29,383 nt of DNA from a virus, in IMG/VR virus record IMGVR_UViG_3300025133_000462, positions 1 to 29,383 of that record. One strand, 5' to 3'. Each line of letters starts with the position of its first letter. Within the stretch, counting starts at the first letter, position 1. Shown here in pieces: positions 8,267-27,571 of the stretch. The position numbers and the translations under genes were made by a program. The notes below the pieces were generated by a model. The model worked only from the letters and a program-made list of their open reading frames with translations. It had not been told where the DNA came from and did not search any database.

Positions 8267-9514
8267 CTATTCTATCTCCTCACCACAATCAAGACAAAAC
8301 CAATAAGTAATATATTCGTGGTCTTCTCTACCATACCTATCCTCACCTTGTTCCAAATTCTCATGTTCACAATCCGTTTCTACCGTACTTAACATCTTTG
8401 CTGCAATAGCCCTTACCACATTCACGGTTACTGCATTACCACACATTCGATACCTCTGTGTGTCACTTATATTCACAACCTTGCCATCTACCATACCCTT
8501 ACTTGTCCAACCATCTTCCCATGTTCCATCCTCATTCCTGGCGCTAAAACCCTGAAGTCTTTCACATTCATTTGGAGTTAATCTTCTTATTCTTGAATTT
8601 TCATATAATCGTAAACTATTATGATGCGGTTCTGTTAATGTTGGAGAAATATCCTGTGCCTTTCTATTATACAAATCCAATGCCTTTACATCATCAGCCT
8701 TCAAATCATTTTTAGCCAATGTTTCATCTAATGCCTTAACCCCATAACTCTTTTCTATAGCCAATGGTGGCATCCAAGAAGGTTCTGTCTCACTTGACTT
8801 TACACTATTTAAACAAGGACTTACGTTATCCTTTCTTATCCTTAATCCCTCATCCGTCCTATAGTCTGCTATCATTGTCCTCTTACCATCTACTCCTTTG
8901 TAGTATGAGGCGTCAATACAGGTGACGACATCCCCTTTTTCTTGCTTACTTCCATCTGTTGCATCGCCTTTTCTGATAGGAAATATTTGTCCTCTACCTC
9001 TGTCTCCAATATATCCCGCAATGTATACTCGCTCTCTGTTCTGTGGGAGGTAATACTTAGTATTTTCCAATGAGCATTCAACATTATAATCAAGGTCGGC
9101 AAGAACTCCATATATTTTAGCAAATGTGGTGTAATCATCGTGACTATATAAGCCTTTAACGTTCTCGAGTAAAAAATAGGGGACTGGGTCTCCTTTATCC
9201 CTGTAATACGAGAGAATCCGTGCGATTTCAAAAAATAAAGTCCCTCTGGCGTCTCGAATATCTCGTTTCCCTGCAATACTGAAACTCTGGCACGGAAAAC
9301 CTCCACAAAGGACTGTAAGCTTATCTGGTAAATCTCTTTCTGGTTGAATAAGTTTAATGTCTCCAAGTTCTACCGCCTCTGGGTATCTATGTCTATAAAC
9401 TGAACTGGCGTGTTTATCAACCTCACTAAAACCAACCCAATCAAATTCCCATCCAGCCTCTTCAAAACCCCTATGGAATCCACCGATTCCACTAAATAAG
9501 TCCAACATCTGCAT
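8267..9514 (-). CDS. C5 cytosine DNA methyltransferase
   Basis: This 415-residue enzyme would transfer methyl from S-adenosylmethionine to carbon 5 of cytosine in a DNA target. The motifs are in order: DLFSGIGG (5-12) for cofactor binding, GFPCQSFS (72-79) with catalytic C75, ENVK (117-120), QNRERVYI (158-165), a target recognition region at about 190-310, RLTPNECERLQGF, and GNAV (359-362). The roughly 45-residue tail has C382, H384, C407 and C410, a possible zinc site not usual for the minimal family. It probably protects phage DNA from host restriction. The target sequence cannot be read from the protein. The gene follows a small membrane protein by one base. Confidence 0.95.
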   Translation of the reverse strand: MQMLDLFSGIGGFHRGFEEAGWEFDWVGFSEVDKHASSVYRHRYPEAVELGDIKLIQPERDLPDKLTVLCGGFPCQSFSIAGKRDIRDARGTLFFEIARILSYYRDKGDPVPYFLLENVKGLYSHDDYTTFAKIYGVLADLDYNVECSLENTKYYLPQNRERVYIAGYIGDRGRGQIFPIRKGDATDGSKQEKGDVVTCIDASYYKGVDGKRTMIADYRTDEGLRIRKDNVSPCLNSVKSSETEPSWMPPLAIEKSYGVKALDETLAKNDLKADDVKALDLYNRKAQDISPTLTEPHHNSLRLYENSRIRRLTPNECERLQGFSARNEDGTWEDGWTSKGMVDGKVVNISDTQRYRMCGNAVTVNVVRAIAAKMLSTVETDCEHENLEQGEDRYGREDHEYITYWFCLDCGEEIE

Positions 9515-10200: not shown

Positions 10201-11214
10201 ATGAAAGGTCATTTTAATAGTAACAGAGATTTCGGGATTGAGATTGAGTTTCTCATTCCACGAGATAATACACAAGAAACGATTGCCAGTGCATTAAGGG
10301 GAGTTGGTATAGATTGTCGGGTAGAAGGATACAATCACACGACGAGACCTCATTGGAAGATAGTTAGTGACGTTTCTGTCAATGGTAATTCTACCCATAC
10401 GGGGAGTAACGAATTAGTCTCACCTCGTCTAAGTGGTGAGAATGGGTTAAGGCAAGTTGAAAAGGTTTGTGATATTTTGAACCTTCTCGGGTGTGAAGTT
10501 AACAAATCTTGTGGACTTCATGTTCATCAAGATGTTACCGACATTGTCGGAGAGAGTGACAGAACTGCAACCAAGTTTCTCAAGAATCTTGTTTTGTTTT
10601 GTGCAAAATATGAGAATATCATCTACAAACTTATTGCACCATCTCGTCTCGACAATCGACAATATTCAATACCCGTGAGAAGGGTATTTTTTAGAAGTCG
10701 TAACATGAGATTGAACAATGAACTTTCGACCATCAAAAATGCCTTGGATAGGAATGTGAAAATAGTTGTTAACGATAAGTCCGAGAGTAGTGTATCGGGA
10801 TATTTACAAAATCGTCGGTCTTGTGGATTGAATCTCTATAAGATATGGCAACGAGGTTCTGTAGAATTTCGATACCATAATGGTACTCTCAATTTCGAGA
10901 AGATTAAGTCTTGGGTAGTTGTGACAAATGCCATTGTTAACTCTGTAGAAGATACGAATTTTGTTAAACTCTGTAATGTCCCAAATGGTTCAAGAGGTTT
11001 GGCAAGTTTCCGAGGTGCAATTGGTTTTGTCGGTAGAAGTGGAAATCAAGATGGTACACCATACTCAAATGACCAATTAACCAAAGATGCAAATCTTTTC
11101 ATACAGAGAAGATATAGGAATCTGAATGCAAGACAAAATGCATATGCAAGACATCACGATTATAGATTTGTAAGTGATGGAATCTTTAACATCCAAAACA
11201 ACCAAGGAGTTTAA
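10201..11214 (+). CDS. Amidoligase (COOH-NH2 ligase, Amidoligase_2-like)
   Basis: This 337-residue protein belongs to the glutamine-synthetase-fold ligases that use ATP to join a carboxylate to an amine. Motifs in order: FGIEIEF at 11-17, whose glutamates bind metal in the fold; HWKIVSD at 51-57; ELVSPRLSG at 71-79; CGLHVH at 104-109; and VEFRYHNGTLN at 231-241, which supplies the Arg of the active site. A basic, Arg/Tyr-rich tail of about 60 residues follows. It is first in the rightward operon, and its last codons carry the ribosome binding site of the amidotransferase gene two bases downstream. With that gene and the cyclotransferase it suggests peptide or amine ligation; substrate unknown. 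Confidence 0.85.
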   Translation: MKGHFNSNRDFGIEIEFLIPRDNTQETIASALRGVGIDCRVEGYNHTTRPHWKIVSDVSVNGNSTHTGSNELVSPRLSGENGLRQVEKVCDILNLLGCEVNKSCGLHVHQDVTDIVGESDRTATKFLKNLVLFCAKYENIIYKLIAPSRLDNRQYSIPVRRVFFRSRNMRLNNELSTIKNALDRNVKIVVNDKSESSVSGYLQNRRSCGLNLYKIWQRGSVEFRYHNGTLNFEKIKSWVVVTNAIVNSVEDTNFVKLCNVPNGSRGLASFRGAIGFVGRSGNQDGTPYSNDQLTKDANLFIQRRYRNLNARQNAYARHHDYRFVSDGIFNIQNNQGV

Positions 11215-11216
11215 TT

Positions 11217-12218
11217 ATGTGTGGATTAGTGGGAATAATAAATAAAAAAGATGATTCAAGAAGTATGTTCGATGGATTGAAAATACGAGATTCATTCGTG
11301 AAGATGACTAAAACTGCAAATACTCGTGGAGGTCATTCTACGGGTTTTGCAATCATCCAACGTGATGGAGATTACTTACTTTGTAAGAGAAATCAAGATG
11401 CATATTCATTCTTTCTTCAAAGGTCTGTTTTGAGTGCATTGGATTTCATTGACATAAGTGAAACGAGTGCCATAATAGGTCATACTCGATACTCGACACA
11501 AGGGTCACCCGAGAACAATGAAAATAATCATCCCATAAGGGCAAATAACACCATTGGAACTCACAATGGTTCAGTATGGAATGATGACGAACTTTTTGAA
11601 AAGTTTGGTCTCGAGAGATTTGCAGAAGTTGATTCAGAAGTCTTATTCAGACTTTACGAATACTCTGATAATTTCAAAGACTACATCGAAAAGTTAAAAC
11701 TTGTGAAGGGTAACGTCTCGATGGTTTGGCAAGACTTGGAATTTCCCGAGTACGTCTATCTGTTCAAAGGTAATAACCCATTGGAAATTGCCTACATACC
11801 ATCGTTAAAGTGTCTTGCCTATGGTAGTACCCGTGAAATCGTCAAAAGTGGATTCTCGGACGAATTACGATGGTTAAAGGTCAAACCTAATACACTCCTA
11901 AGAGTTAATACCAATACTCTCAAAGTGAATAGAACTGATGCACGAATAAGTAAGAGTGCAAATAGGTACTTTAGATTTGATTCTAAGATTGGTGCAAGTG
12001 TGAGAGTAAAACCGAAATCTTGCAAACCTAAAAGGGTTCCAATCTCGTTAGATGACGAAACCATCAAAAGGTTTGTACCTCGATATAGTTATCGTGATAA
12101 CATCGATGATGTTGTGAATGACATACTCGAGAGAGACGTACCACAACAGAACTTGCCCTTTAATACTCGACAAAGTGTAAAGGCAAATGATGGAAGTACC
12201 ATCAAGAAAGTAAAATAA
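11217..12218 (+). CDS. Stand-alone class II glutamine amidotransferase
   Basis: This 333-residue protein has the N-terminal nucleophile glutaminase fold. Removal of Met1 would expose catalytic Cys2 (MCGLVGII). Further signatures are NTRGGHSTG at 35-43, GHTRYST at 88-94, NENNHP at 101-106, GTHNGSV at 114-120 and VDSEVLF at 138-144. Known members release ammonia from glutamine and pass it to a synthase domain. Here no synthase domain is fused; the last 100 or so residues are basic and of unknown fold. The neighbouring amidoligase is the natural acceptor of the ammonia or the partner in peptide chemistry. It is coupled to that gene by a ribosome site inside the amidoligase end (AAGGAG). Confidence 0.9.
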   Translation: MCGLVGIINKKDDSRSMFDGLKIRDSFVKMTKTANTRGGHSTGFAIIQRDGDYLLCKRNQDAYSFFLQRSVLSALDFIDISETSAIIGHTRYSTQGSPENNENNHPIRANNTIGTHNGSVWNDDELFEKFGLERFAEVDSEVLFRLYEYSDNFKDYIEKLKLVKGNVSMVWQDLEFPEYVYLFKGNNPLEIAYIPSLKCLAYGSTREIVKSGFSDELRWLKVKPNTLLRVNTNTLKVNRTDARISKSANRYFRFDSKIGASVRVKPKSCKPKRVPISLDDETIKRFVPRYSYRDNIDDVVNDILERDVPQQNLPFNTRQSVKANDGSTIKKVK

Positions 12219-12226
12219 CAATAACC

Positions 12227-12263
12227 GAGAGTGGTGACCTTTTTTGAAAAGGTCGCCATTCTC
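12227..12263 (+). promoter_or_regulatory. Perfect 17-bp RNA hairpin after the amidotransferase gene
   Basis: Bases 12227-12243 pair with 12247-12263 over 17 positions around a TTG loop; 15 pairs are Watson-Crick and two are G-U. There is no T run after it, so it is not a classical terminator. The next start-site element begins three bases later. It could be an RNase processing site, a stabiliser of the upstream message, or a regulator of the following start. Confidence 0.65.
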
Positions 12264-12282
12264 ACAAAAGTGGAGAACTGAA

Positions 12283-12438
12283 ATGAAAAAAACAAAATGG
12301 AAAATTAATTGGGATTTAACTAATAAATTTCAAACTTGCATTGAATGTCAATGGTTGTTTAGTGATAAATCACCACTAACAGAACGTAAATGGGTTAGTC
12401 GGGATATGTTACCATTCTATATCGTTGGATACAAATAA
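12283..12438 (+). CDS. 51-residue protein, unknown
   Basis: The start is the ATG placed 7 bases after GTGGAG, giving a 51-residue product rather than a longer upstream frame. It begins MKKTKWKINWDLTNKF, has a Cys pair C-I-E-C near residues 19-22, and ends MLPFYIVGYK. Aromatic residues (Trp, Phe, Tyr) are frequent. It lies just after the hairpin at 12227-12263. No family was recognised. As a short product between an amidoligase and a cyclotransferase it is one candidate substrate of the ligase, which is speculation. Confidence 0.65.
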   Translation: MKKTKWKINWDLTNKFQTCIECQWLFSDKSPLTERKWVSRDMLPFYIVGYK

Positions 12439-12456
12439 ACAAAAGTGGAGAATAAC

Positions 12457-12693
12457 ATGAAAAAAAATAAATGCAAAATATGTAATCGATATGATTGCAA
12501 TATTGAGGAACTCAATGAAAATTGTATGTGTTGTGGTAATTCACTCGTCAACCATAGGGAGTGGATTGAAAAAAAGAATAAGTACGAATTGAACTTAGAT
12601 AAGTATTGCAACCAATGTGAAGAAGAAGTTTCTTCAATCAAAGATGAGAGAATTGTTTGTGATGATGTGTGGAAAGATGAGTGGTATCAGTAA
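12457..12693 (+). CDS. 78-residue Cys-rich protein, possible zinc ribbon
   Basis: The start is the ATG after GTGGAGAATAAC. The product has CKICNRYDC near residues 5-13, CMCCGN near 24-29 and CNQCEEE near 54-60. Repeated C-x2-C pairs are typical of small zinc-binding folds that bind nucleic acid or protein. A charged helix (REWIEKKNKYELNLDKY) lies between the pairs, and the end is acidic and aromatic (VWKDEWYQ). No closer family was recognised. It ends 14 bases before a strong hairpin at 12707-12754. Confidence 0.7.
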   Translation: MKKNKCKICNRYDCNIEELNENCMCCGNSLVNHREWIEKKNKYELNLDKYCNQCEEEVSSIKDERIVCDDVWKDEWYQ

Positions 12694-12706
12694 AAATGAA
12701 GTGGCA

Positions 12707-12754
12707 GCAATTGGGAAGAACCTCGCTGAATCTCAGCGATGTCTTCCTGGTTGC
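12707..12754 (+). ncRNA. Long structured RNA element
   Basis: Bases 12707-12719 pair with 12742-12754 in a 13-bp stem (three G-U pairs), then an ACC/TG internal loop, then a perfect 7-bp stem TCGCTGA/TCAGCGA around the loop ATC. A small palindrome TCAATT-CA-AATTGA follows at 12760-12773. The element is visibly richer in G and C than the genes around it, and the 164-base gap it sits in (12694-12857) has no supported gene. It could be a regulatory or processed RNA. A T run at 12785-12790 is too far away for a classical terminator. Confidence 0.6.
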
Positions 12755-12857
12755 ATCGCTCAATTCAAATTGAAATTAAATAACATTTTTTAATAAAAAG
12801 GTTGCATTGTTTAAATTACTATCGTAATCTATGTCAACCAAAAAGTGGAGAATAACA

Positions 12858-13154
12858 ATGAGTACAAAATACACAATGGAATTAAATCATATTGCCAATT
12901 CTGATATAGGTGGTGGTTATTGGGCAAATACAATAGATAATGAACCAATTATAGAATCGGGTAAAACTCTAAAAGAAATGCAAGATAAATATTTTGATTG
13001 GAGAAACAGAAATGAACTTGGGAGTGGTAATGTCCCTTCCATTTACGTTTATAAGAACAAAGAAATAATTGTCGGTTGGTTTAGTTATAATGGACGATTA
13101 TGGGAAGGTTGTCAATGGAATAGTAACACAAAGGAAATTATTATTAACAAATAA
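12858..13154 (+). CDS. 98-residue protein, unknown
   Basis: The ATG after GTGGAGAATAACA defines the start; an in-frame ATG 27 bases upstream lies before the site and is unlikely. The product begins MSTKYTMELNHIANSDIGGG and contains alternating polar and aromatic segments (YWANTIDNEPI, YVYKNKEIIVGWF), giving the look of a small beta-sheet protein. It has one Cys, no signal peptide and no membrane segment. It follows the RNA hairpin region and precedes another gene of the same type by 14 bases. No family was recognised. Confidence 0.7.
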   Translation: MSTKYTMELNHIANSDIGGGYWANTIDNEPIIESGKTLKEMQDKYFDWRNRNELGSGNVPSIYVYKNKEIIVGWFSYNGRLWEGCQWNSNTKEIIINK

Positions 13155-13168
13155 AAGTGGAGAATAAA

Positions 13169-13624
13169 ATGAAAATAACGAAAAAAATAGTTGAAAACTT
13201 TCTACCACATGATATGTGGTATGGATTTAAATGGATAATTCCATTCGTAACACCATTTATTAAACAAAACAATATCAAACCAAATGACCATTGTTGGTAT
13301 CAGAGTGGTGGTGGTTGTTGTCATTATTTCATTAGAGATGAAAACAACCACGTTTATACATTTCACACCGAAAGTGAAATTGTCGAAAAATCATTCAACA
13401 AGTGGGAAGGTGACAATTGGTCGGATGATTATTTAGATGATGATAAATTCACAAGAGATGATGGATATTATACTTTCGGATGGGAGGTTGATTCACCAAA
13501 TTATTTTCCAAAGTGGTTAATAGATTTGGACTATAAAAACCAACGGGGAAAAGATGGTGAGAGGTGGTGGAGATTTGAAAACATAAATCCTACGGGATAT
13601 AAAAAACTAAATAGTGGAGAATAA
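13169..13624 (+). CDS. 151-residue aromatic-rich acidic protein, unknown
   Basis: The ATG after GTGGAGAATAAA is the start. The product has a mildly hydrophobic N-terminal segment (WYGFKWIIPFVTPFI, about residues 17-31), a CWYQSGGGCCHYFIRDE segment near 42-58, and an acidic middle (DNWSDDYLDDDKF). It is notable for many Trp and Tyr residues. Its last codons, AGT GGA GAA TAA, are at the same time the ribosome-binding element of the next gene, so the C-terminus is constrained by that site. No function can be given; the GGGCC run could bind metal. Confidence 0.7.
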   Translation: MKITKKIVENFLPHDMWYGFKWIIPFVTPFIKQNNIKPNDHCWYQSGGGCCHYFIRDENNHVYTFHTESEIVEKSFNKWEGDNWSDDYLDDDKFTRDDGYYTFGWEVDSPNYFPKWLIDLDYKNQRGKDGERWWRFENINPTGYKKLNSGE

Positions 13625-13625
13625 A

Positions 13626-14216
13626 ATGAAATACTCAAAAGAACATAAAATCGGTAAAAAGATGATTCTCGAATCAGACTTCTCGGTAAAGTCGGTAAAG
13701 ACTTTTATGGGTAGAGAAGGTTATGGTGTAAATGCCAATATTTACTACCAAAATCGGAAGATTGGTCACATCATCGATAGTGGTAATGGTGGGTGTCTTG
13801 ACATTTCTTATTACAAAAAGGTGAATGGCAAAGACAAATGGATGCATAAAAATCGCGATGTGGATAAGTTCGTCACCGAACTACCGAACTATACTTGGAA
13901 GTGGGATAAGAAAGATGAACCCACAAAATCTAAATTCGATGAAGAAGAGATGTGGAATATTCTCATCGATGAATATCTATTTGTGAAAGACTTCAAAAAG
14001 GAAATGAAGAAAATCCAAATTGTTCACAATAACAAGGTCTTTACATTCGTGAAAGATAACAAACCACATTTCTTAGATAAGTTATATCACTATAACGGGA
14101 AAAGTGGTGTATCGTTTCGTGAGATTATCAAAGACAAATACGATGGATGTACCATCTTGAATGATGTATCAAATAACAAGGCAATGAGACTATTTAGAAC
14201 TCATTCCTCTAACTAA
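13626..14216 (+). CDS. 196-residue conserved-type phage protein, unknown
   Basis: The start at ATG 13626 lies one base after the previous stop and uses the element embedded in the previous gene. The N-terminal half contains a pattern I associate with small uncharacterised phage proteins: GYGVNANIYYQNRKIGHIID, then SGNGGCLDISYY, then a basic-charged region and KFDEEEMWNILIDEYLF. The C-terminal half repeats strand-type segments (KVFTFVKDNKPHFL) and ends FRTHSSN. The fold appears mixed alpha-beta and soluble. Function unknown. Confidence 0.7.
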   Translation: MKYSKEHKIGKKMILESDFSVKSVKTFMGREGYGVNANIYYQNRKIGHIIDSGNGGCLDISYYKKVNGKDKWMHKNRDVDKFVTELPNYTWKWDKKDEPTKSKFDEEEMWNILIDEYLFVKDFKKEMKKIQIVHNNKVFTFVKDNKPHFLDKLYHYNGKSGVSFREIIKDKYDGCTILNDVSNNKAMRLFRTHSSN

Positions 14217-14228
14217 GTGGAGAATAAC

Positions 14229-14396
14229 ATGGAAACAATATTAAAACACCTAAGATGGTTACATCAAGATTTAGGAGAGATGATTAGTAGATTAGAACTC
14301 CGAAAATTGGATGTGCAACATATACCGAAGTTTTGGATGGACTACGTTCGCGATTCTATTCAAGAAAACCCCGAAATACATTCGGAAGGAGAGTAA
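14229..14396 (+). CDS. 55-residue helical protein, unknown
   Basis: A frame from ATG 14229 to TAA 14394-14396 is preceded by AAGTGGAGAATAAC and followed after one base by the next ATG. The product begins METILKHLRWLHQDLGEMIS and contains RLELRKLDVQHIPKFW, so it is mainly two amphipathic helices with an acidic end (ENPEIHSEGE). The final GGA GAG TAA codons double as the ribosome site of the next gene. The shared start element makes this a real gene despite its size. Its role is unknown. Confidence 0.7.
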   Translation: METILKHLRWLHQDLGEMISRLELRKLDVQHIPKFWMDYVRDSIQENPEIHSEGE

Positions 14397-14397
14397 G

Positions 14398-14937
14398 ATG
14401 AAAAACATAAAATTAGAATCATTCGGTGTGTTTGGTTTTGATGGTTACACCGAACAATGGTTTGGTTTTAGTGATGGTAATAATTGGAATGGTTTTGAAA
14501 CACCATTATTCACCAAAGAAACACTAATCAAAATAAAGGATTATTGGGACAAGGAGTTTAAGAAAACCAAAGACACCGATATACCAATACTCAATATTGG
14601 GGAAAGTGTTGGTATGTCGTTATACCGAGATGAACCTTGTGAAACAATACGTCCTATTAAAAGCGATTACGGGAATTTATATCGCATAACCGATTTGACT
14701 TGGAAGAGATATGATTACATCTCTCTCGACGGGGATATATTTTTCAAAGAAGATGTGGATTGTGTACCCGATTTAGGATGGGAAGTGACCAAGATTCAAC
14801 CCGAAGATGGAATGGTGAGTCTCGAATTAGTAGATAACGATGGAGAAATGTATTTTGAAAATGATAAATTCAAAATGTGGAGAGATGAGATGTTCACTTA
14901 CAGAACAGATATACACATAACTAACTTAGAATCATAG
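14398..14937 (+). CDS. 179-residue acidic aromatic protein, unknown
   Basis: The start is ATG 14398, six bases after GGAG; a longer frame reaching upstream would overlap the preceding small gene and lacks a site. The product opens MKNIKLESFGVFGFDGYTEQ, has repeated glycine-aromatic strand segments (WFGFSDGNNWNGFETP), a PILNIGESVGMSLYRDE strand pair and an acidic end region (LVDNDGEMYFENDKF). It resembles an all-beta soluble protein. No family was recognised. It ends 11 bases before the cyclotransferase gene. Confidence 0.7.
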   Translation: MKNIKLESFGVFGFDGYTEQWFGFSDGNNWNGFETPLFTKETLIKIKDYWDKEFKKTKDTDIPILNIGESVGMSLYRDEPCETIRPIKSDYGNLYRITDLTWKRYDYISLDGDIFFKEDVDCVPDLGWEVTKIQPEDGMVSLELVDNDGEMYFENDKFKMWRDEMFTYRTDIHITNLES

Positions 14938-14948
14938 AGGAGAGTAAA

Positions 14949-15578
14949 ATGACAAACGTAATAGTGTATGGAACACTTAAAAGGAATGGTCGGTTTTCCG
15001 ACTATTTGAGAGAACAAAAGTATGTCAAACGAGTCAACATAAGTGGATTCAAGATGTACGATAGTGGATACGGATTCCCATTTGTAGTTGAAGGCAAAGA
15101 GACGGATGCAATCTATGGGGAGTTGTATAAGGTCAATGATAGGGTATTAAACATACTTGACCACGTTGAGAATGTTGAGAGTGGATTGTATTCCCGTATT
15201 AATTTGGAAGAAACATATCCATCCATCAAAGTACCGACATATCTCTACGTCAGTAAATTGTCACATTTTGACTCTGCAACACGCGAGATTCCATATGGAT
15301 ATTGGAGTGTAGACAACGATTATCTGCAAATAATGAGAGTGCAAATTCACGAGAAAGTCTACGAAGACATCGCTAAAAAGATTGTTTTTCACATGAGATT
15401 TTTCGATGGAGACAGAACTCCAACCAATAAATCTTATATGAGAATGGTTGAAAAAAGGATGCACACACCAATTAACACAGAAATTGAAGAGATATTCCTA
15501 ACTGATTTAATCCTAATGGGTAGAATCAAGGAGTTGACAGAAGAAGATGCATTTAAACTAAGAGGAGGTAAAAAATGA
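14949..15578 (+). CDS. Gamma-glutamylcyclotransferase-like (AIG2/GGCT fold) protein
   Basis: The first 120 residues carry the GGCT pattern: VYGTLKRN at 6-13 for substrate binding, GELY at 57-60, LDHVENVESGLYSR at 70-83 with the acid region where the catalytic Glu lies (E74 or E77), YLY at 98-100 and YGYW at 116-119. Enzymes of this fold release 5-oxoproline from gamma-glutamyl amines, or act on related isopeptide bonds. The last 90 residues are an unusual helical extension. Together with the amidoligase and amidotransferase, it could remove or edit gamma-glutamyl links made by the system. The next gene overlaps its stop (ATGA). Confidence 0.85.
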   Translation: MTNVIVYGTLKRNGRFSDYLREQKYVKRVNISGFKMYDSGYGFPFVVEGKETDAIYGELYKVNDRVLNILDHVENVESGLYSRINLEETYPSIKVPTYLYVSKLSHFDSATREIPYGYWSVDNDYLQIMRVQIHEKVYEDIAKKIVFHMRFFDGDRTPTNKSYMRMVEKRMHTPINTEIEEIFLTDLILMGRIKELTEEDAFKLRGGKK

Positions 15579-16162
15579 GCGTACAACCGGTAAAAGACCG
15601 CAATAAATTAAATCAGATGATTGAGTTTTTAGAACTGAAAGGAAATAAGAGGGATGTGTTGTTGTTGAAGTTTGGACTCAACACGGGACTTCGTATAAAT
15701 GACATACTAAGACTCAAGGTTAAACATCTTTTCGACTCTAATGGCAATTTAAACGAGTATTTAGACCTATTTGAATCCAAGACCATCAAAAGACGTAACC
15801 GAAAGTTGAAACAAATAAAACTTAATAGTATTATTCGACCAGAGTTAATTTCATATGTGCAATATTATGAACTTGAGTCTGAAGATTGGATTTTCTTTTC
15901 ATTAAGAGAACCATTGAACCCTTTGGACAGAGTTAGGGCATGGACAATACTTAAAGAAGCGGCAACCAGGGTGGGAGTAGCGAAGTTTGGAACTCATTCA
16001 ATGAGAAAAACACTCGCGTATAATGTTTATAGCGAAACAAAAGACCTTGCATTAGTAATGAGACTATTGAATCACAATGACCCCGACCACACTTTGCGAT
16101 ATATTGGTGTGGTTCAACACGATTTGGATACTGCATACGAACAACATGGAATAGGAGGATAG
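15575..16162 (+). CDS. Minimal tyrosine recombinase (phage integrase family)
   Basis: At 195 residues this is only the catalytic domain. The active-site set is visible: R40 in GLRINDIL, K69 in SKTIK, H141 and R144 in HSMRKT, H167 in LLNHNDP, and nucleophile Y176 in TLRYIGV. Usual integrases have a further 100-180 N-terminal residues that bind arm and core DNA; those are missing, with a strong AGGAGG site fixing the start. It could act in integration, genome-dimer resolution, or inversion. The HTH protein at 7632-7853 is a possible directionality factor. No phage repressor gene was seen, so temperate life is not shown. Confidence 0.88.
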   Translation: MSVQPVKDRNKLNQMIEFLELKGNKRDVLLLKFGLNTGLRINDILRLKVKHLFDSNGNLNEYLDLFESKTIKRRNRKLKQIKLNSIIRPELISYVQYYELESEDWIFFSLREPLNPLDRVRAWTILKEAATRVGVAKFGTHSMRKTLAYNVYSETKDLALVMRLLNHNDPDHTLRYIGVVQHDLDTAYEQHGIGG

Positions 16163-20629: not shown

Positions 20630-23600
20630 TTATTTTTTCTCATATTCACCAAAGACTTCTGGAAACTGTATCTTACCTTGTTTTAATTTTCCCATAGCTA
20701 TTTTAAATAAGGCTTGTGGCTTCTGTGCAAATTCAGCATTTTTTCTTTTCTCTGCGGCTTTTTTAAAAAGATAAGCCCTGTCAACTGGTCTGGTATTTAT
20801 GTCATTTGCTTTTGCTTCTAATTCATTAGCTTCTCTTAACAACCTTGTTTCTTCAATTCTGTAGTCACTCTTCATACGACCCATTGTGCCTTTTAAAATA
20901 TTAAGACCATTTATCTTGTTCCTGCTACAGCCAATGAATATCTGTCTCATCATTTCCGTATCATTAGCTGCTAATGCAATCTCCATCAGGTCACCAGCTT
21001 TTCTGGCTGTCATTCCTCTGCTGCTCGGAACTGCAATGTTAGAGAACTTCCATTCTTTGGTCTTATCTAAGGCTGCTTGAGTAGAAAATGGAAGTGGTGT
21101 TCTCATCAATGTTTTTGTTAAACCATACAACCACTCTGTCCCCTTCTTATCTTTTAAATCATAATTATCAAAACCACTTGGAGATTTACCTGTGAAAATC
21201 TGAGTTGTTGTCTGTACGATTGGAGCAGTCTTACCACCTACTTTTTTTACAGCAGCCTGTGGAAAATTAAATCCAGTATCATCATAGAATAATTCAATGA
21301 ATTCCCTGAACTGTTTTCCCCAGCGCAAATATTCTTCTGTGCCGTCTGTATACCTGCCCATGAAAAGTTTTGTCTGGCTCCCTATGGTATTTCCAAACAT
21401 TGTATAATCCCAAAAACCATAATCTTCTTTATCTGGATAATAATCTGGATTGTCTTCCATATCCTTTTTACGGTTCAAATAATTTAGAGTATTGATTAAC
21501 GCTCCATAATACAACATGGCTTTTAACCAGAACCGCCTGCCCATCTTGGCTCTCATTTTTTTACCTTCCTTGGTCTTCATTGCAGAACCAAGACCAGTAG
21601 GAGCAAGAGCCTGTCTCATAGTAGATACTGTCCAGTCAGGAGATAATAAGAACCAAGTCATTACCTGTACGGTTTTTGGATTTACCATCAGTACATCCCA
21701 GTTTTGACCACCAAATGTATCGTTCACTAATTGTGCAGCTTCATACTTAAATGTGTCGATATTATCACCCTTATATCTTGAGACAAGAGATTCATAGGCG
21801 AAAAGTTTATAATTGTCATGCAAATAATCCCACAAAGCAAAGTTCCATCTTTCATAAAAACCGCTTGCAAGTTTTGTTGCCTGCTCTGCCACTGGCACGC
21901 CCTTCATTTTAACTTCCAGTGATTTGATTGCGGATGTTATTTTATGCACTGGAATATCAACAGAAACCCCAAGCTGTCCTCGATGAACAAGAAAATCTCT
22001 TGCTAATGGTAGGTTTTTCCAAACATCGCTTTCCATCTTTATGAAACCCTTCCAAGGGGTCTTTAATAAAACACCAAGCATTTTTGGGACATCTCGATAT
22101 GATACTATGGGCATAGCTGTTTCTGTCAATGCCAGATGATGAAATAACGATAATGCTAACTGCATCTGTTTTAAGCCGCCATTCAATGCCTCATAAGCTG
22201 ATAAAACCCTGCCGCCTTCAAATCTTTCCCCCAAAACAACCTTGATTGGACTTACAAGTTCTGGGTGTACCTTGTAATATGTTTGGGTAAAAGGATTCTT
22301 CATAGCTGGATGATGTATCTCAGCCCAACCATCTGGAGCGTGCTGCGGCATGGTAATCAAAGGTTTACCGCCAACATTTAATTTTCTGAGGTTAGCCACA
22401 AATTTTTTGTTTGCCAGTGATTTATTGGCTATACTGGCATATATATTATATATATCATTTATATCAGTGTATTTCGGCTTTAAATCATATTTATCTATAC
22501 CTTCAGTTAGTGTTTCTATGTAACGCTTTTCAGTAAATTTATTGTAGGTGCTAAACCAACGAGCAACATCTGCTTTTTTATTAGTGGCAATATCCCATAT
22601 ATGTGTCACATAATCCATTATTTCTTTGCGAGATAGCTCTGGATTTTCTTTTGCTATTCTATCCCACAATTCTTTAAAACGCTTCCTGAATGACTCCACC
22701 ACTGGCTGTAAATTCTCAACCAGCTTCTTGTCCTGCATTAATTTCTCAAGGTCGGGACGCTTTAATTTTTTAGGTATTGTTGTAGCCTTTTCAAGAAGGA
22801 AAGGTATCAACTCCCTTTGTTCAAGGGTTGTGATTTGTTTAATATCGTTTAAAAAGGAGTTTGTTTCAAGTGATGTGAGCGATAGCTCTGCCCTGAGATT
22901 TTGAATCAGCATAGGGATTTGTTGCCTTACAGCTTCGACACCCTCATCTATCAACTCCGCAAGTTTTCGCTTCTTTTCCTCGCGGAGCTTGCGCTCATCC
23001 GGGGTTATTTTTTTGAGCTGGTAGGTTGGTCTTGTTTTCTTGGGGAGGACACTACGGTTAAATCTCGGTCTGTGAACTGGTAAGCGGTCTCGGAGGACTT
23101 TAGAGTATTGTCCTGTATCCCCTTCGTACTTTCTGATAATTTCGACGTATCGTTTGTCGGCTCTGGCTCGGTTCCCAAAATCTCCAACAAATCTTGCATC
23201 GCCCCTTTGTAATCTGGTCTTGGCATTGAATCTTCTCCTTACTAAGTTGACATAATTTACTAACTGTCCACCTTCATCTACAACAACTAAATCAACTTTG
23301 TTTCCCGTTACTGGCATTGTTTTATATTCAATACCTCTTTTTGTAAGGGACTCAACTATTCTCGGTAAATCCTTCAGGGATACATCCAGATTGATTTTAT
23401 ATAGGTTGTCAACACCTTCTGGATTGACTTCGAAATCAAGAATGGCTTCCTGATTACCCATCAAACCTTTAATTGCTGCAAGGTATTCACGTTTCTCATA
23501 AGAGACTGGTTCTGTAATCGTGGTCATTACTGATGGTTCTGCACCCGTAGCCCATTCACCAAGGGATGCAGTGGTCATTGATTTAATTCCTAATTCAACT

Positions 23601-26600
23601 TCAACTTCTGCAACTGACCTGTGATATTGCTGCAGTTTTTTAGATTTGATTCCTTTGATTGCTTCAGGTAATCCTATCTCTTTTATCTGTGGGCTGGCAA
23701 ACTGGTAGGCTTCTGGCTTAACACCAAATATTGATGCATCACCAGTAGCTGCAAAATCAGATAGCATTTTTACTTGTGGAGATTCTTGATTTAATACTGT
23801 TAGCCAATATTGTTTAGCTGCATAAAATGGATTTGCTACCCTTGAATCCGTTTTGGGCAATGCTTCTACAAAAGTATCAAGGTCAATTGGCTCTGGAAGC
23901 TCCAAGTATTTATCAAAATTGACTTCAATATCATATTCTGGATGCACATTCTTTCTTTCACCGCCTGTCCTGAAATCTTTTATTGTAGCCACAGCAACAA
24001 CTTTTCTTGCTATTTGAGCAAAGTCTGGCACTGCTGTTTCTTTTGCAACTTGAACTGCGCTAATCTTCGCTTCCTTGACCGCTTGAAATATGTCACCAGT
24101 CTTATCTAACAATGATTTAGCTTTACGCTTTCCTACTTTATTTTCTAATTCTCTATATAAAGCATTTAAATAAGCCCTGTTTTTTACCATAGAGCCTTTG
24201 GCATCTACCAGAGACGTAATCCCAACTACATTGTATCCAGCTTTTGTATCATTCAACAACTTGGTGACTGCAGCGGAACTATTCAATGCCCAGCCCTTAT
24301 ATGTCCTTGGATACCTGATACCAAAATCTTCATATTCACCTTTCAAATTAATGTTTACTGGGTCTCCAGTAATAAAGGTCACTCCCCTATTTTTTGACAC
24401 ACTTGGCAGCGTTATCTCTTTAGTCTTCTTAAGACTGTAATTTATCTTCGTTGGTGAAGGCTCTCCCTTAACGTCTTTCATTAATTCAGCATGGATTTGT
24501 TCAGGAGTCCTTAATTTTTCACTGACAGACCTGTCTAAAAAATCTTTTAAATCTTTTGAGACCTTGCCTTGCTTAACGTACTTAGCAAACCTACTGGCAC
24601 TTTTCCTGAGAGCATCGGCATATTCTCTGAACTTCCTGAATATTCGTGTGAGAACATCACCGACCTTCCCTTTTGGTTTCGCACCAATCGCATTGTCTTT
24701 CGCCCTGTCACTGAACCATTCGCCATTGCTTTGTGACGGGTCGTCCTTTTCTCCTGTCCTTTCATGGTATTTCCTTCTTTCTTCGGTTATAGTCTTATCA
24801 AATTTTGGATTCAATTCTTCCTGCTGCCTATACCATAGTTCTGCACGCTCTTCTACAACAGTACCAATGTCTGCCCCCTGATGCAGCTTAACAACATCTA
24901 CTAAAGCACCATCTCTAAGCTCCTGATAGTTCTCTCCTGCTATCTTAATATCTGCAGGTTCAACACCAACAAACTCCTGTCCTGCTGCTTCTATCTGCGC
25001 CAGTGCATTCTCTGGAGTCTCTGGACTCAATGGGTCATCTATATTGTCCTGCAGAGTCCTTAACTCGTCCAACTTGGTCTGATAGTCTACTTCCGGGTCT
25101 AATTCCTTAAATAAATCAACCACTTCCTTGATAGCTTCAGTCTCTGTAATCTTCTTCTCCAAGGTAATACCCTTGGTCTTGGCTTCCAACTCAAGGTCTT
25201 CCAGCCTCTTGGTGGACTGCTCAAAGCTCTGTTCCAACTGCTGTCTCTGCATCCCAGCTAAACCTTCAAGCATTAAGTTCGACTGAGCCGCAGCCTGAGC
25301 ATCTAATAAATTAGTGTACTGTTTGTTTAATGCTATTTCCTTCTCTGCCTTTACTGCTTCTGCTGTGGTTTTTACTGGGACATCGTCAATAGGTTTTACC
25401 ATTTCAATAGTTTCAGAATTATCAAATAAACTTTCTAAATTATTTGTTTTTTCAATTATTTTTCCATTTATTAATGGTTTATATCCTTGTTCTAATAATA
25501 ATTCTGCATCAATTTCATTTACTATTTTTGATTCTTTGAATTTTTGTTTAATTATATCTTGGTTAATAATTACAATATTTTCAGATGTTCTATTTTCTAA
25601 ACCACTATCTAAAAATCTTATAGCCCCATAACCTTTTTCTTTTAATTTTTTATATAATTTTTTTACATTTTTTAATCCAATGTAAGATTCTCCAAATTCT
25701 GCACCTATTTTTTCGTGCAACATATATTCATCAGAAATACCTAAATCTTTTAAGATATTATCAGCTTCTTCTTCGCTTGCAATTTTATTTTCAGGAATTT
25801 CAATTTCATACAGGCTATCACCCTGCCCTCTTTCAGAACCTTGTTCTATGTAGTTAATGGCTTCTTTTTTATTTTCGCTAACATATAAATCTTGAGATGA
25901 AGAGAGTTTTTTTAAATCACCACCATGATAAACTTTTGTTGTTTTTTTGCTTTCTTTTTTTACTTCAGGCGTTATTTTTCTCTGCTCTAATGTTTTCCGT
26001 GCTTCTATCCTTTTTATGTAACCAATAGCATATTGATAATCCATTCCCCCTTCTCCCCATTCCCACTCACCACTCTTTTGATTTTTTTTATACAAACTCC
26101 AACCTAAATTTTCTCCCGTATCATCATCTTTCAATCTTCTAATTCTATATTCTGTACCAGAACCTAATTTTATTGTTTTTATTGGGTCACCATCAGCTTC
26201 TTCAACGACAAAATCTTCATTTTTTATCTTTACATTCGTCATTTCTTTTTTGACCATCTCAGGCGTTATTTCAGGCGATACTGGGGTAACCTCAACTTGA
26301 GTTACGGGCTTTTTGGGTACTTCTACAGGCTCGATTTTCGGCTCTTTTACGATTTCTACGGGTTTTATGGGAATTGTTGGCTCTATACCTGTTTTTGCTG
26401 GTATCTGTTTTGGTTTCGCTTTTGGAATATCAAATACTTCTTTTGGTTTAATTCTTAATTTTTTAAGTATAGCATCTTTTAAAGGCACTTCCATCTTACC
26501 TTCAGTAACTATTTTTCTAAGAGTTTGCACTCCTTCTGGTTTTTGAGTCAGTTCTCTCACATAGGATTCTACTTCAGGTATTTTTTTCCTACCTATAACA

Positions 26601-27571
26601 CCACCAAATTCTTGTCGAATTGCTTCTATTTCAGGCTTTGTAAGTTTAATCTGAACAGGTTTATATAAAGGTGCTTTAGCTTTTGTCTTGTAATATTCAG
26701 CTACGGGCTTAATCTTTTTAGGTAGCTGAGTTGCTTGTTTTGCGGTAGCTTTAAAAATAAAAGGCTGCATAAAATATTCTACTGGATATTGATTAATTTT
26801 ATTAATCATTTTTTTCTTATATGCAATAGCTTCTTTATCACCAAATGCTATCCGTGTCTGTAATACTGGGTCAAGACCTCCTGCTTGAATAAGCTCCCCA
26901 ATCATTTTTGGACTCTCTATCATTAAAAACTTAACAAAGTCCCAAGGATGTTCTGTTATGTCTCTTACTATTTGTACAGGTAGACCTGCTAACTTTGTTG
27001 CCCCCTCTGCAATATTAGCAACTATTTCATCATCCGTAACTTGTTCGTCTTCATCCCTGAATCTATTAAAATATTCAGTCACTGGTTCCCATGCTTCAGC
27101 AGTTGTTGTTCTTCCAGTAACAAGATTATCAATTGATGCACCAAAAGCACTATTAAAATCGTCTACAGACTTATTCCAGTTTTTTACATATGGCTGTATT
27201 TTTTCTGTAAATGAAGGTTCTGGTGGCGGCTCTTCAATAATCGGTTCTTCTGGCTCAGGCTCTCGAACTTTGAATTGCAGCCTGTTATCTATATTAGATA
27301 CTATTTTCTGATTCAAAGCATTAAGCTGCTCGTCCTGATAAGTAATATCAGACTTGATTGTCTTTTGCTCTTCTTGAATTAAACCTTCATTAATTTTATT
27401 ATAAAATGTGGTTGAATCACCAAATTGTTCATTGTCAAGATATAATCTTAACTTTTCTGCGCTGGCAGGGTCTGTTAATTTCTCACTAAATGAATCAAGC
27501 GAACCAAATTGTTTTGGGTTTGGGTCGTTAGTTTGTATATAATCGTATAGTCTTTTAGCATTTTCTGACAT
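20630..27571 (-). CDS. Giant polyvalent virion protein with ADP-ribosyltransferase-like domain
   Basis: At 2313 residues this single frame resembles the large polyvalent proteins carried in phage particles and injected with DNA. Residues 1-60 match a common phage N-terminal pattern (AKRLYDYIQTNDPNPKQFG). A Pro/Lys/Val-rich linker spans about 384-432. About 545-680 resembles an ADP-ribosyltransferase: KVYHGGDLKKL, LYVSENKKEAINYIE, then GYGAIRFLDSG and SENIVIIN. A coiled coil lies near 770-813, and a helical LHQGADIGTVVEERAELWY region near 890 lacks a full HExxH metal site. The last 850 residues are like internal virion or ejection proteins (YVTHIWDIA near 1650, hydrophobic LKAMLYYGALINTL near 2015). 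It shares TAATG with the gene upstream. Domain names are by recalled pattern. Confidence 0.8.
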   Translation of the reverse strand: MSENAKRLYDYIQTNDPNPKQFGSLDSFSEKLTDPASAEKLRLYLDNEQFGDSTTFYNKINEGLIQEEQKTIKSDITYQDEQLNALNQKIVSNIDNRLQFKVREPEPEEPIIEEPPPEPSFTEKIQPYVKNWNKSVDDFNSAFGASIDNLVTGRTTTAEAWEPVTEYFNRFRDEDEQVTDDEIVANIAEGATKLAGLPVQIVRDITEHPWDFVKFLMIESPKMIGELIQAGGLDPVLQTRIAFGDKEAIAYKKKMINKINQYPVEYFMQPFIFKATAKQATQLPKKIKPVAEYYKTKAKAPLYKPVQIKLTKPEIEAIRQEFGGVIGRKKIPEVESYVRELTQKPEGVQTLRKIVTEGKMEVPLKDAILKKLRIKPKEVFDIPKAKPKQIPAKTGIEPTIPIKPVEIVKEPKIEPVEVPKKPVTQVEVTPVSPEITPEMVKKEMTNVKIKNEDFVVEEADGDPIKTIKLGSGTEYRIRRLKDDDTGENLGWSLYKKNQKSGEWEWGEGGMDYQYAIGYIKRIEARKTLEQRKITPEVKKESKKTTKVYHGGDLKKLSSSQDLYVSENKKEAINYIEQGSERGQGDSLYEIEIPENKIASEEEADNILKDLGISDEYMLHEKIGAEFGESYIGLKNVKKLYKKLKEKGYGAIRFLDSGLENRTSENIVIINQDIIKQKFKESKIVNEIDAELLLEQGYKPLINGKIIEKTNNLESLFDNSETIEMVKPIDDVPVKTTAEAVKAEKEIALNKQYTNLLDAQAAAQSNLMLEGLAGMQRQQLEQSFEQSTKRLEDLELEAKTKGITLEKKITETEAIKEVVDLFKELDPEVDYQTKLDELRTLQDNIDDPLSPETPENALAQIEAAGQEFVGVEPADIKIAGENYQELRDGALVDVVKLHQGADIGTVVEERAELWYRQQEELNPKFDKTITEERRKYHERTGEKDDPSQSNGEWFSDRAKDNAIGAKPKGKVGDVLTRIFRKFREYADALRKSASRFAKYVKQGKVSKDLKDFLDRSVSEKLRTPEQIHAELMKDVKGEPSPTKINYSLKKTKEITLPSVSKNRGVTFITGDPVNINLKGEYEDFGIRYPRTYKGWALNSSAAVTKLLNDTKAGYNVVGITSLVDAKGSMVKNRAYLNALYRELENKVGKRKAKSLLDKTGDIFQAVKEAKISAVQVAKETAVPDFAQIARKVVAVATIKDFRTGGERKNVHPEYDIEVNFDKYLELPEPIDLDTFVEALPKTDSRVANPFYAAKQYWLTVLNQESPQVKMLSDFAATGDASIFGVKPEAYQFASPQIKEIGLPEAIKGIKSKKLQQYHRSVAEVEVELGIKSMTTASLGEWATGAEPSVMTTITEPVSYEKREYLAAIKGLMGNQEAILDFEVNPEGVDNLYKINLDVSLKDLPRIVESLTKRGIEYKTMPVTGNKVDLVVVDEGGQLVNYVNLVRRRFNAKTRLQRGDARFVGDFGNRARADKRYVEIIRKYEGDTGQYSKVLRDRLPVHRPRFNRSVLPKKTRPTYQLKKITPDERKLREEKKRKLAELIDEGVEAVRQQIPMLIQNLRAELSLTSLETNSFLNDIKQITTLEQRELIPFLLEKATTIPKKLKRPDLEKLMQDKKLVENLQPVVESFRKRFKELWDRIAKENPELSRKEIMDYVTHIWDIATNKKADVARWFSTYNKFTEKRYIETLTEGIDKYDLKPKYTDINDIYNIYASIANKSLANKKFVANLRKLNVGGKPLITMPQHAPDGWAEIHHPAMKNPFTQTYYKVHPELVSPIKVVLGERFEGGRVLSAYEALNGGLKQMQLALSLFHHLALTETAMPIVSYRDVPKMLGVLLKTPWKGFIKMESDVWKNLPLARDFLVHRGQLGVSVDIPVHKITSAIKSLEVKMKGVPVAEQATKLASGFYERWNFALWDYLHDNYKLFAYESLVSRYKGDNIDTFKYEAAQLVNDTFGGQNWDVLMVNPKTVQVMTWFLLSPDWTVSTMRQALAPTGLGSAMKTKEGKKMRAKMGRRFWLKAMLYYGALINTLNYLNRKKDMEDNPDYYPDKEDYGFWDYTMFGNTIGSQTKLFMGRYTDGTEEYLRWGKQFREFIELFYDDTGFNFPQAAVKKVGGKTAPIVQTTTQIFTGKSPSGFDNYDLKDKKGTEWLYGLTKTLMRTPLPFSTQAALDKTKEWKFSNIAVPSSRGMTARKAGDLMEIALAANDTEMMRQIFIGCSRNKINGLNILKGTMGRMKSDYRIEETRLLREANELEAKANDINTRPVDRAYLFKKAAEKRKNAEFAQKPQALFKIAMGKLKQGKIQFPEVFGEYEKK

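Follow-up and report, generated by a model that had tools for sequence, protein, structure and literature searches.

Amidoligase, amidotransferase and cyclotransferase genes in a phage record, with a small module fused to the cyclotransferase

The window, as we call the whole stretch of DNA analysed, is a 29,383-base IMG/VR virus record (IMGVR_UViG_3300025133_000462) with P22-like portal, capsid and terminase genes and a RecT/YqaJ/RusA set. Three enzyme genes follow in order on its plus strand: an amidoligase (10201–11214), a class II glutamine amidotransferase (11217–12218) and a gamma-glutamyl cyclotransferase (GGCT, entire gene 14949–15578). A previous reading made from the letters alone (the sequence-only reading) had placed the same enzymes in this order, strand and position, and this was confirmed by Pfam (PF12224, PF13522 with Met-Cys2, and PF06094). 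It had missed the second, C-terminal domain of the GGCT protein, an uncatalogued small module (SM). The gene identities, the predicted folds of ligase and SM, the catalytic residues, the purifying selection, the association of the genes and the linkage of SM to them were all obtained by computation.

The amidoligase (337 aa) belongs to the Amidoligase_2 family of COOH-NH2 ligases with glutamine synthetase (GS) fold. It matched PF12224 over the whole domain (residues 8–246) with E=3e-30 and 106 bits against a cut-off of 22. For its AlphaFold2 model (pLDDT 89.7), VIA gave the YbdK-type gamma-glutamyl ligases (1tt4) as the nearest fold with Z 13.3, followed by glutamine synthetases (Z about 12.5) and Dop (11.7), and the rmsd to YbdK and GS was about 4–5 Å over about 230 residues. 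Plain Foldseek ranked GmaS, YbdK, GS and PafA at the top, with weak E-values near 1e-3. Nine residues (E14, E16, D57, E71, H107, H109, R149, E222 and R224) were invariant across 32 homologues. The modelled ligase has a GS-like fold with the active-site acids kept; a structure lacking these acids, which the sequence-only reading had named as one refutation, did not appear. ATP-dependent amide bond formation is predicted from the enzyme family. Some ligases of other loci carry N-terminal extensions of 60–80 aa (L011:5794-6000, L012:5815-6000 and L014:5758-6000) which resemble helix-turn-helix by eye; in Pfam scans of other ligases with N-terminal extensions, Amidoligase_2 was the sole match.

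The amidotransferase (333 aa, Ntn glutaminase) starts 2 bp after the ligase stop. It begins with Met-Cys2 and matched GATase_6 (PF13522) with E=1e-13, above the curated cut-off. Aligned to the GlmS glutaminase 1xff, it contains the C2 nucleophile together with R91, N117, G118 and D139. A protein of phage C75C1 annotated as gamma-glutamyl cyclotransferase (L015:7711-8607) is a fusion that begins with a class II amidotransferase and ends with a GGCT.

The GGCT domain occupies residues 1–120 of a 209-aa protein (14949–15308, plus strand). It is of the YGTL type and matched GGACT (PF06094) with E=9e-17, also above the curated cut-off, and YtfP (1xhs) in PDB. The YGTLKR motif, Y81 and R83 are conserved, and E74, which we take to be equivalent to E82 of human GGACT, is invariant in the alignment. 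Across the loci collected, ligases were partnered with two cyclotransferase branches, the YGTL type and an AYGSN type (L042-L047, L053-L065 and L272-L299). For all three enzymes dN/dS was computed against L008, a close relative of the window phage (TerL 87% identical); the values were 0.18 for the ligase, 0.08 for the amidotransferase (0.04 over residues 1–215) and 0.13 for the GGCT domain, and they are rough because dS is high. Judged from these comparisons, the three enzymes are under purifying selection and retain the expected active-site residues.

The SM domain covers residues ~133–203 of the GGCT protein (15345–15557, plus strand) and is conserved across the whole window clade. No significant match to it was found in Pfam or PHROG. 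Through profile search, we found a stand-alone protein of about 80 aa elsewhere, whose gene almost invariably follows that of the ligase; loci of Bacteroidota and Verrucomicrobiota, among others, have it directly downstream of the ligase. The profiles of the fused and stand-alone forms matched each other in hhalign with 97.8% probability (E 6.7e-13), and the genome loci, which were outside the profile building, repeated the SM pattern in 30 of 58 cases. Among 22,330 open reading frames (ORFs) there were 96 SM matches, every one in an amidoligase locus; 94 were either part of a GGCT fusion or encoded immediately behind the ligase, and the other two lay further along their own loci (L086 and L220). 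On the ligase tree, the loci with fused GGCT-SM group in a single clade (SH-aLRT 98), indicating one origin.

A reciprocal search was made with the three SM alignments alone against 2.9 million viral contigs. It returned 58 loci with the ligase present in 50, and in the remaining eight the available stretch ends short of the ligase position, three of these being close relatives of the window with a 3-kb insertion. Twenty-five of the 58 were on contigs new to the analysis, and 21 of these 25 contain the ligase. No locus contradicted the linkage of SM to the cassette, though such a search reaches only relatives that keep the short motifs, and more distant SM proteins may exist elsewhere. SM is a fourth component of the cassette, and in the phage and bacterial stretches searched it occurs only beside these enzymes. 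The SM model (pLDDT 93) consists of a beta hairpin and three helices, and in BFVD it had one significant and a few near-significant matches, all to unnamed or uncharacterised viral models. The structure predictions of ligase and SM were run on input without rows from phage records. Among stand-alone SMs, Met42 and Phe65 are constant and Arg48 nearly so (numbering of the L049 protein), and the domain presents a conserved Y-M-x5-R / F-x2-D-L surface.

For the association survey, amidoligase loci were collected from viral contigs (search with a 6-member alignment) and from genomes, with near-copies and truncated loci removed, and 120 random viral loci (1.07 Mb) drawn by an arbitrary 15-mer were used as controls. 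A partner was a homologue of the amidotransferase, GGCT or SM within 4 kb of the ligase, the GGCT count covering both YGTL-type and YGSN-type models. Of the 52 non-redundant viral loci, 51 had at least one partner near the ligase, as did 53 of the 58 loci from genomes. The partner was mostly the gene next to the ligase, with a median gap of 1 bp in viral and 8 bp in genome loci. In the random controls, ligase, cyclotransferase and SM were all absent and a single amidotransferase was present; this sole homologue is of class II (L129:213-1265), and its available stretch has no ligase. The association is therefore far above chance, and it is conserved.

Gene orders in the non-redundant viral loci included the following: ligase, amidotransferase and fused GGCT-SM (16), ligase, SM and GGCT (8), ligase and SM (12), and ligase and GGCT (10). 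Within the window clade, the order ligase, amidotransferase, GGCT was kept in all 18 loci of sufficient length. When same-strand neighbours were clustered without use of families, the cyclotransferase, the small SM protein and the amidotransferase took the top ranks. Two fusions, of amidotransferase with GGCT in C75C1 and of GGCT with SM in the window clade, link the parts to each other. At four loci (L032, L033, L038 and L041) the trio is oriented opposite to most of its neighbours, as would be expected of a mobile unit. The earlier statement that the ligase family associates with these partners in phages thus held, and the outcome which would have spoken against it, that the three genes never co-occur in relatives, did not occur.

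Between the amidotransferase and GGCT genes (12445–14937) we counted six plausible small ORFs of 59–208 aa on the plus strand: 12445–12693, 12831–13154, 13157–13624, 13614–14216, 14217–14396 and 14311–14937. The number of seven given in the sequence-only reading was not firm. That reading had also included them in a defined candidate system, and this we rejected. Only two of the six have homologues in L008, the closest relative (13614–14216, 76%; 14217–14396, 75%), and most relatives lack all six between the enzymes, the start of GGCT there overlapping or adjoining the stop of the amidotransferase; we therefore judge them to be insertions outside the cassette. One of the six had a distant PHROG match to which no function is assigned there.

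Upstream of the cassette and divergent from it, a cytosine DNA methyltransferase (8267–9514) resembles type II or orphan enzymes in PADLOC-DB. It was present in four of 19 window-clade loci and is an inconstant neighbour. Downstream, the gene of a short tyrosine recombinase (195 aa, 15575–16162) shares 4 bp with the end of the GGCT gene; its L008 counterpart, 89% identical, lies about 200 bp downstream of GGCT. A 2313-aa protein on the minus strand (20630–27571) had no Pfam match at E 0.001. A promoter and terminator scan gave fewer promoter-like sites than shuffled sequences and nothing useful. The common neighbours of clostridial amidoligase loci look by eye like a conjugative element. Anti-phage defence was also considered and rejected: neither the three enzymes nor SM gave a match in PADLOC.

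The trio is an enzyme combination already described. Amidoligases, an amidotransferase, an ATP-grasp enzyme and GGCT form a predicted peptidoglycan modification cassette common to several podophages, in Pseudoalteromonas HP1/RIO-1 and relatives of LUZ24 and phiEco32 (PMC5498523, citing Iyer et al. and Hardies et al. 2013). The alteration of wall peptides is a prediction in the literature, and a role in superinfection was hypothesised. The same prediction, or a variant of it, is made in papers on OM43 phages, on a set of Clostridium prophages and on a planctomycete phage. The podophage cassette shares with the window the clustering of amidoligase, class II amidotransferase and GGCT, but it has two ligases and a RimK-like ATP-grasp enzyme and SM was undetected in it, whereas in the window's cassette one ligase was found and SM is fused to GGCT. 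Pfam gave no match for a second ligase or an ATP-grasp enzyme among the cassette ORFs scanned, which were part of the ORFs of a possibly incomplete record. Arthrobacter phages Waltz and Ottawa contain the same three enzymes within 3 kb; there, however, GGCT is upstream of the ligase, SM was undetected, and ligase and amidotransferase are 27–32% identical to those of the window. Loci of Porphyromonas, Bacteroides and Verrucomicrobiota have a ligase about 28–40% identical in the matched part and a homologous SM, but their SM is a separate gene directly after the ligase and the amidotransferase was usually undetected. Taken as a whole, the sequence-only interpretation stands for the enzyme assignments, the association and the intact ligase, and is not supported for the system of intervening genes.

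On balance, and with a modest preference only, we favour a mobile phage cassette that would cyclically write and erase a gamma-glutamyl-type amide and in which SM would be the docking subunit. The chemistry is proposed because of the enzyme families; for this phage we infer it, as we do the docking role and the target. The ATP-dependent amidoligase of GS fold would activate a carboxylate as acyl phosphate and then join it to an amine. Cys2 of the class II amidotransferase would hydrolyse glutamine or a gamma-glutamyl amide, either supplying ammonia or removing the amide. The cyclotransferase would close the gamma-glutamyl amide to 5-oxoproline and free the amine. The most likely role of SM would be docking, either of eraser to ligase or of both to a substrate they have in common. 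As a first guess, the products might be altered host peptidoglycan peptides or another altered surface peptide, serving superinfection exclusion as the literature predicts.

Several results weigh against this write/erase cycle. The amidotransferase was undetected in 33 of 52 viral loci and GGCT was undetected within 4 kb in 15 of 52, so that the full cycle is not obligatory, although an undetected partner gene could sit elsewhere in the same genome. SM is missing from several clades of the ligase tree. Its model had no significant PDB match (the best VIA hit, AcrIIA15 with Z 3.8, is too low to be meaningful), which does not by itself establish a new fold. Our literature search found no biochemical test or proven substrate of a phage Amidoligase_2.

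The nearest fold of the ligase model, YbdK, is itself a gamma-glutamyl ligase, and the system could be one of auxiliary nitrogen or glutathione metabolism: the ligase would produce gamma-glutamyl amino acids or amines in free form, and the cyclotransferase and amidotransferase would recycle glutamate and ammonia, to the benefit of the infected cell. A phage of a planctomycete, which has these gene types and a glutathione synthase, is reported to promote growth on nitrate or ammonium, an effect that the available portion of the source ascribes to these genes by inference only (PMC10945688). A dedicated SM fused to the eraser, and the tight coupling of the genes, look targeted rather than like loose metabolism, and we regard the metabolic explanation as rather unlikely. 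Base modification is far less probable still. Some phages attach amino compounds to DNA bases, such as thymines, and the ligase system might act on phage DNA bases or nucleotides in the same manner, with the cytosine methyltransferase upstream as a possible hint; but the cassette genes that were scanned included no recognisable base-hypermodification enzyme, and the methyltransferase is too inconstant a neighbour to help. That the genes are chance neighbours, cargo with no functional connection, would suit the unrelated small genes that separate amidotransferase from GGCT in the window. This reading is contradicted by the locus survey, with partners kept at nearly every locus against a single match in the random viral DNA, and by two different fusions of cassette parts, and we find it scarcely credible.

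SM itself might be the acceptor or tag, joined to a target by the ligase as Pup is by PafA and released by the cyclotransferase. Its small size, the position of its gene right behind that of the ligase and its restriction to the cassette would suit this, and the fold neighbours of the ligase, a member of the same superfamily, include PafA and Dop. However, a Pup-like tag is small and disordered with a conserved C-terminal Glu or Gln, whereas SM is predicted to be well folded, is fused to an enzyme in the window, and had no sequence or structural likeness to Pup that we could find. Across stand-alone SMs, no Lys, Ser or Cys is invariant and the C-terminal tail shows no conservation, and we think the tag improbable. 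Nor do we give a better chance to SM as the cassette's own substrate or carrier, on which the ligase would build a gamma-glutamyl product for release by the cyclotransferase; without an invariant Lys, Ser or Cys, SM looks more like a docking module than a carrier. Were the carrier reading true, it would mean an unrecognised peptide-carrier or tagging system common to phages and bacteria.

Amidoligase cassettes recur in phages and prophages, and no proven substrate was found for them in the literature. SM, restricted to the cassette and fused to the eraser in one clade, is a handle for probing it. It also points to cassettes whose genes are entered as hypothetical by annotation pipelines, and the compact three-gene version is small enough for reconstitution in one experiment.

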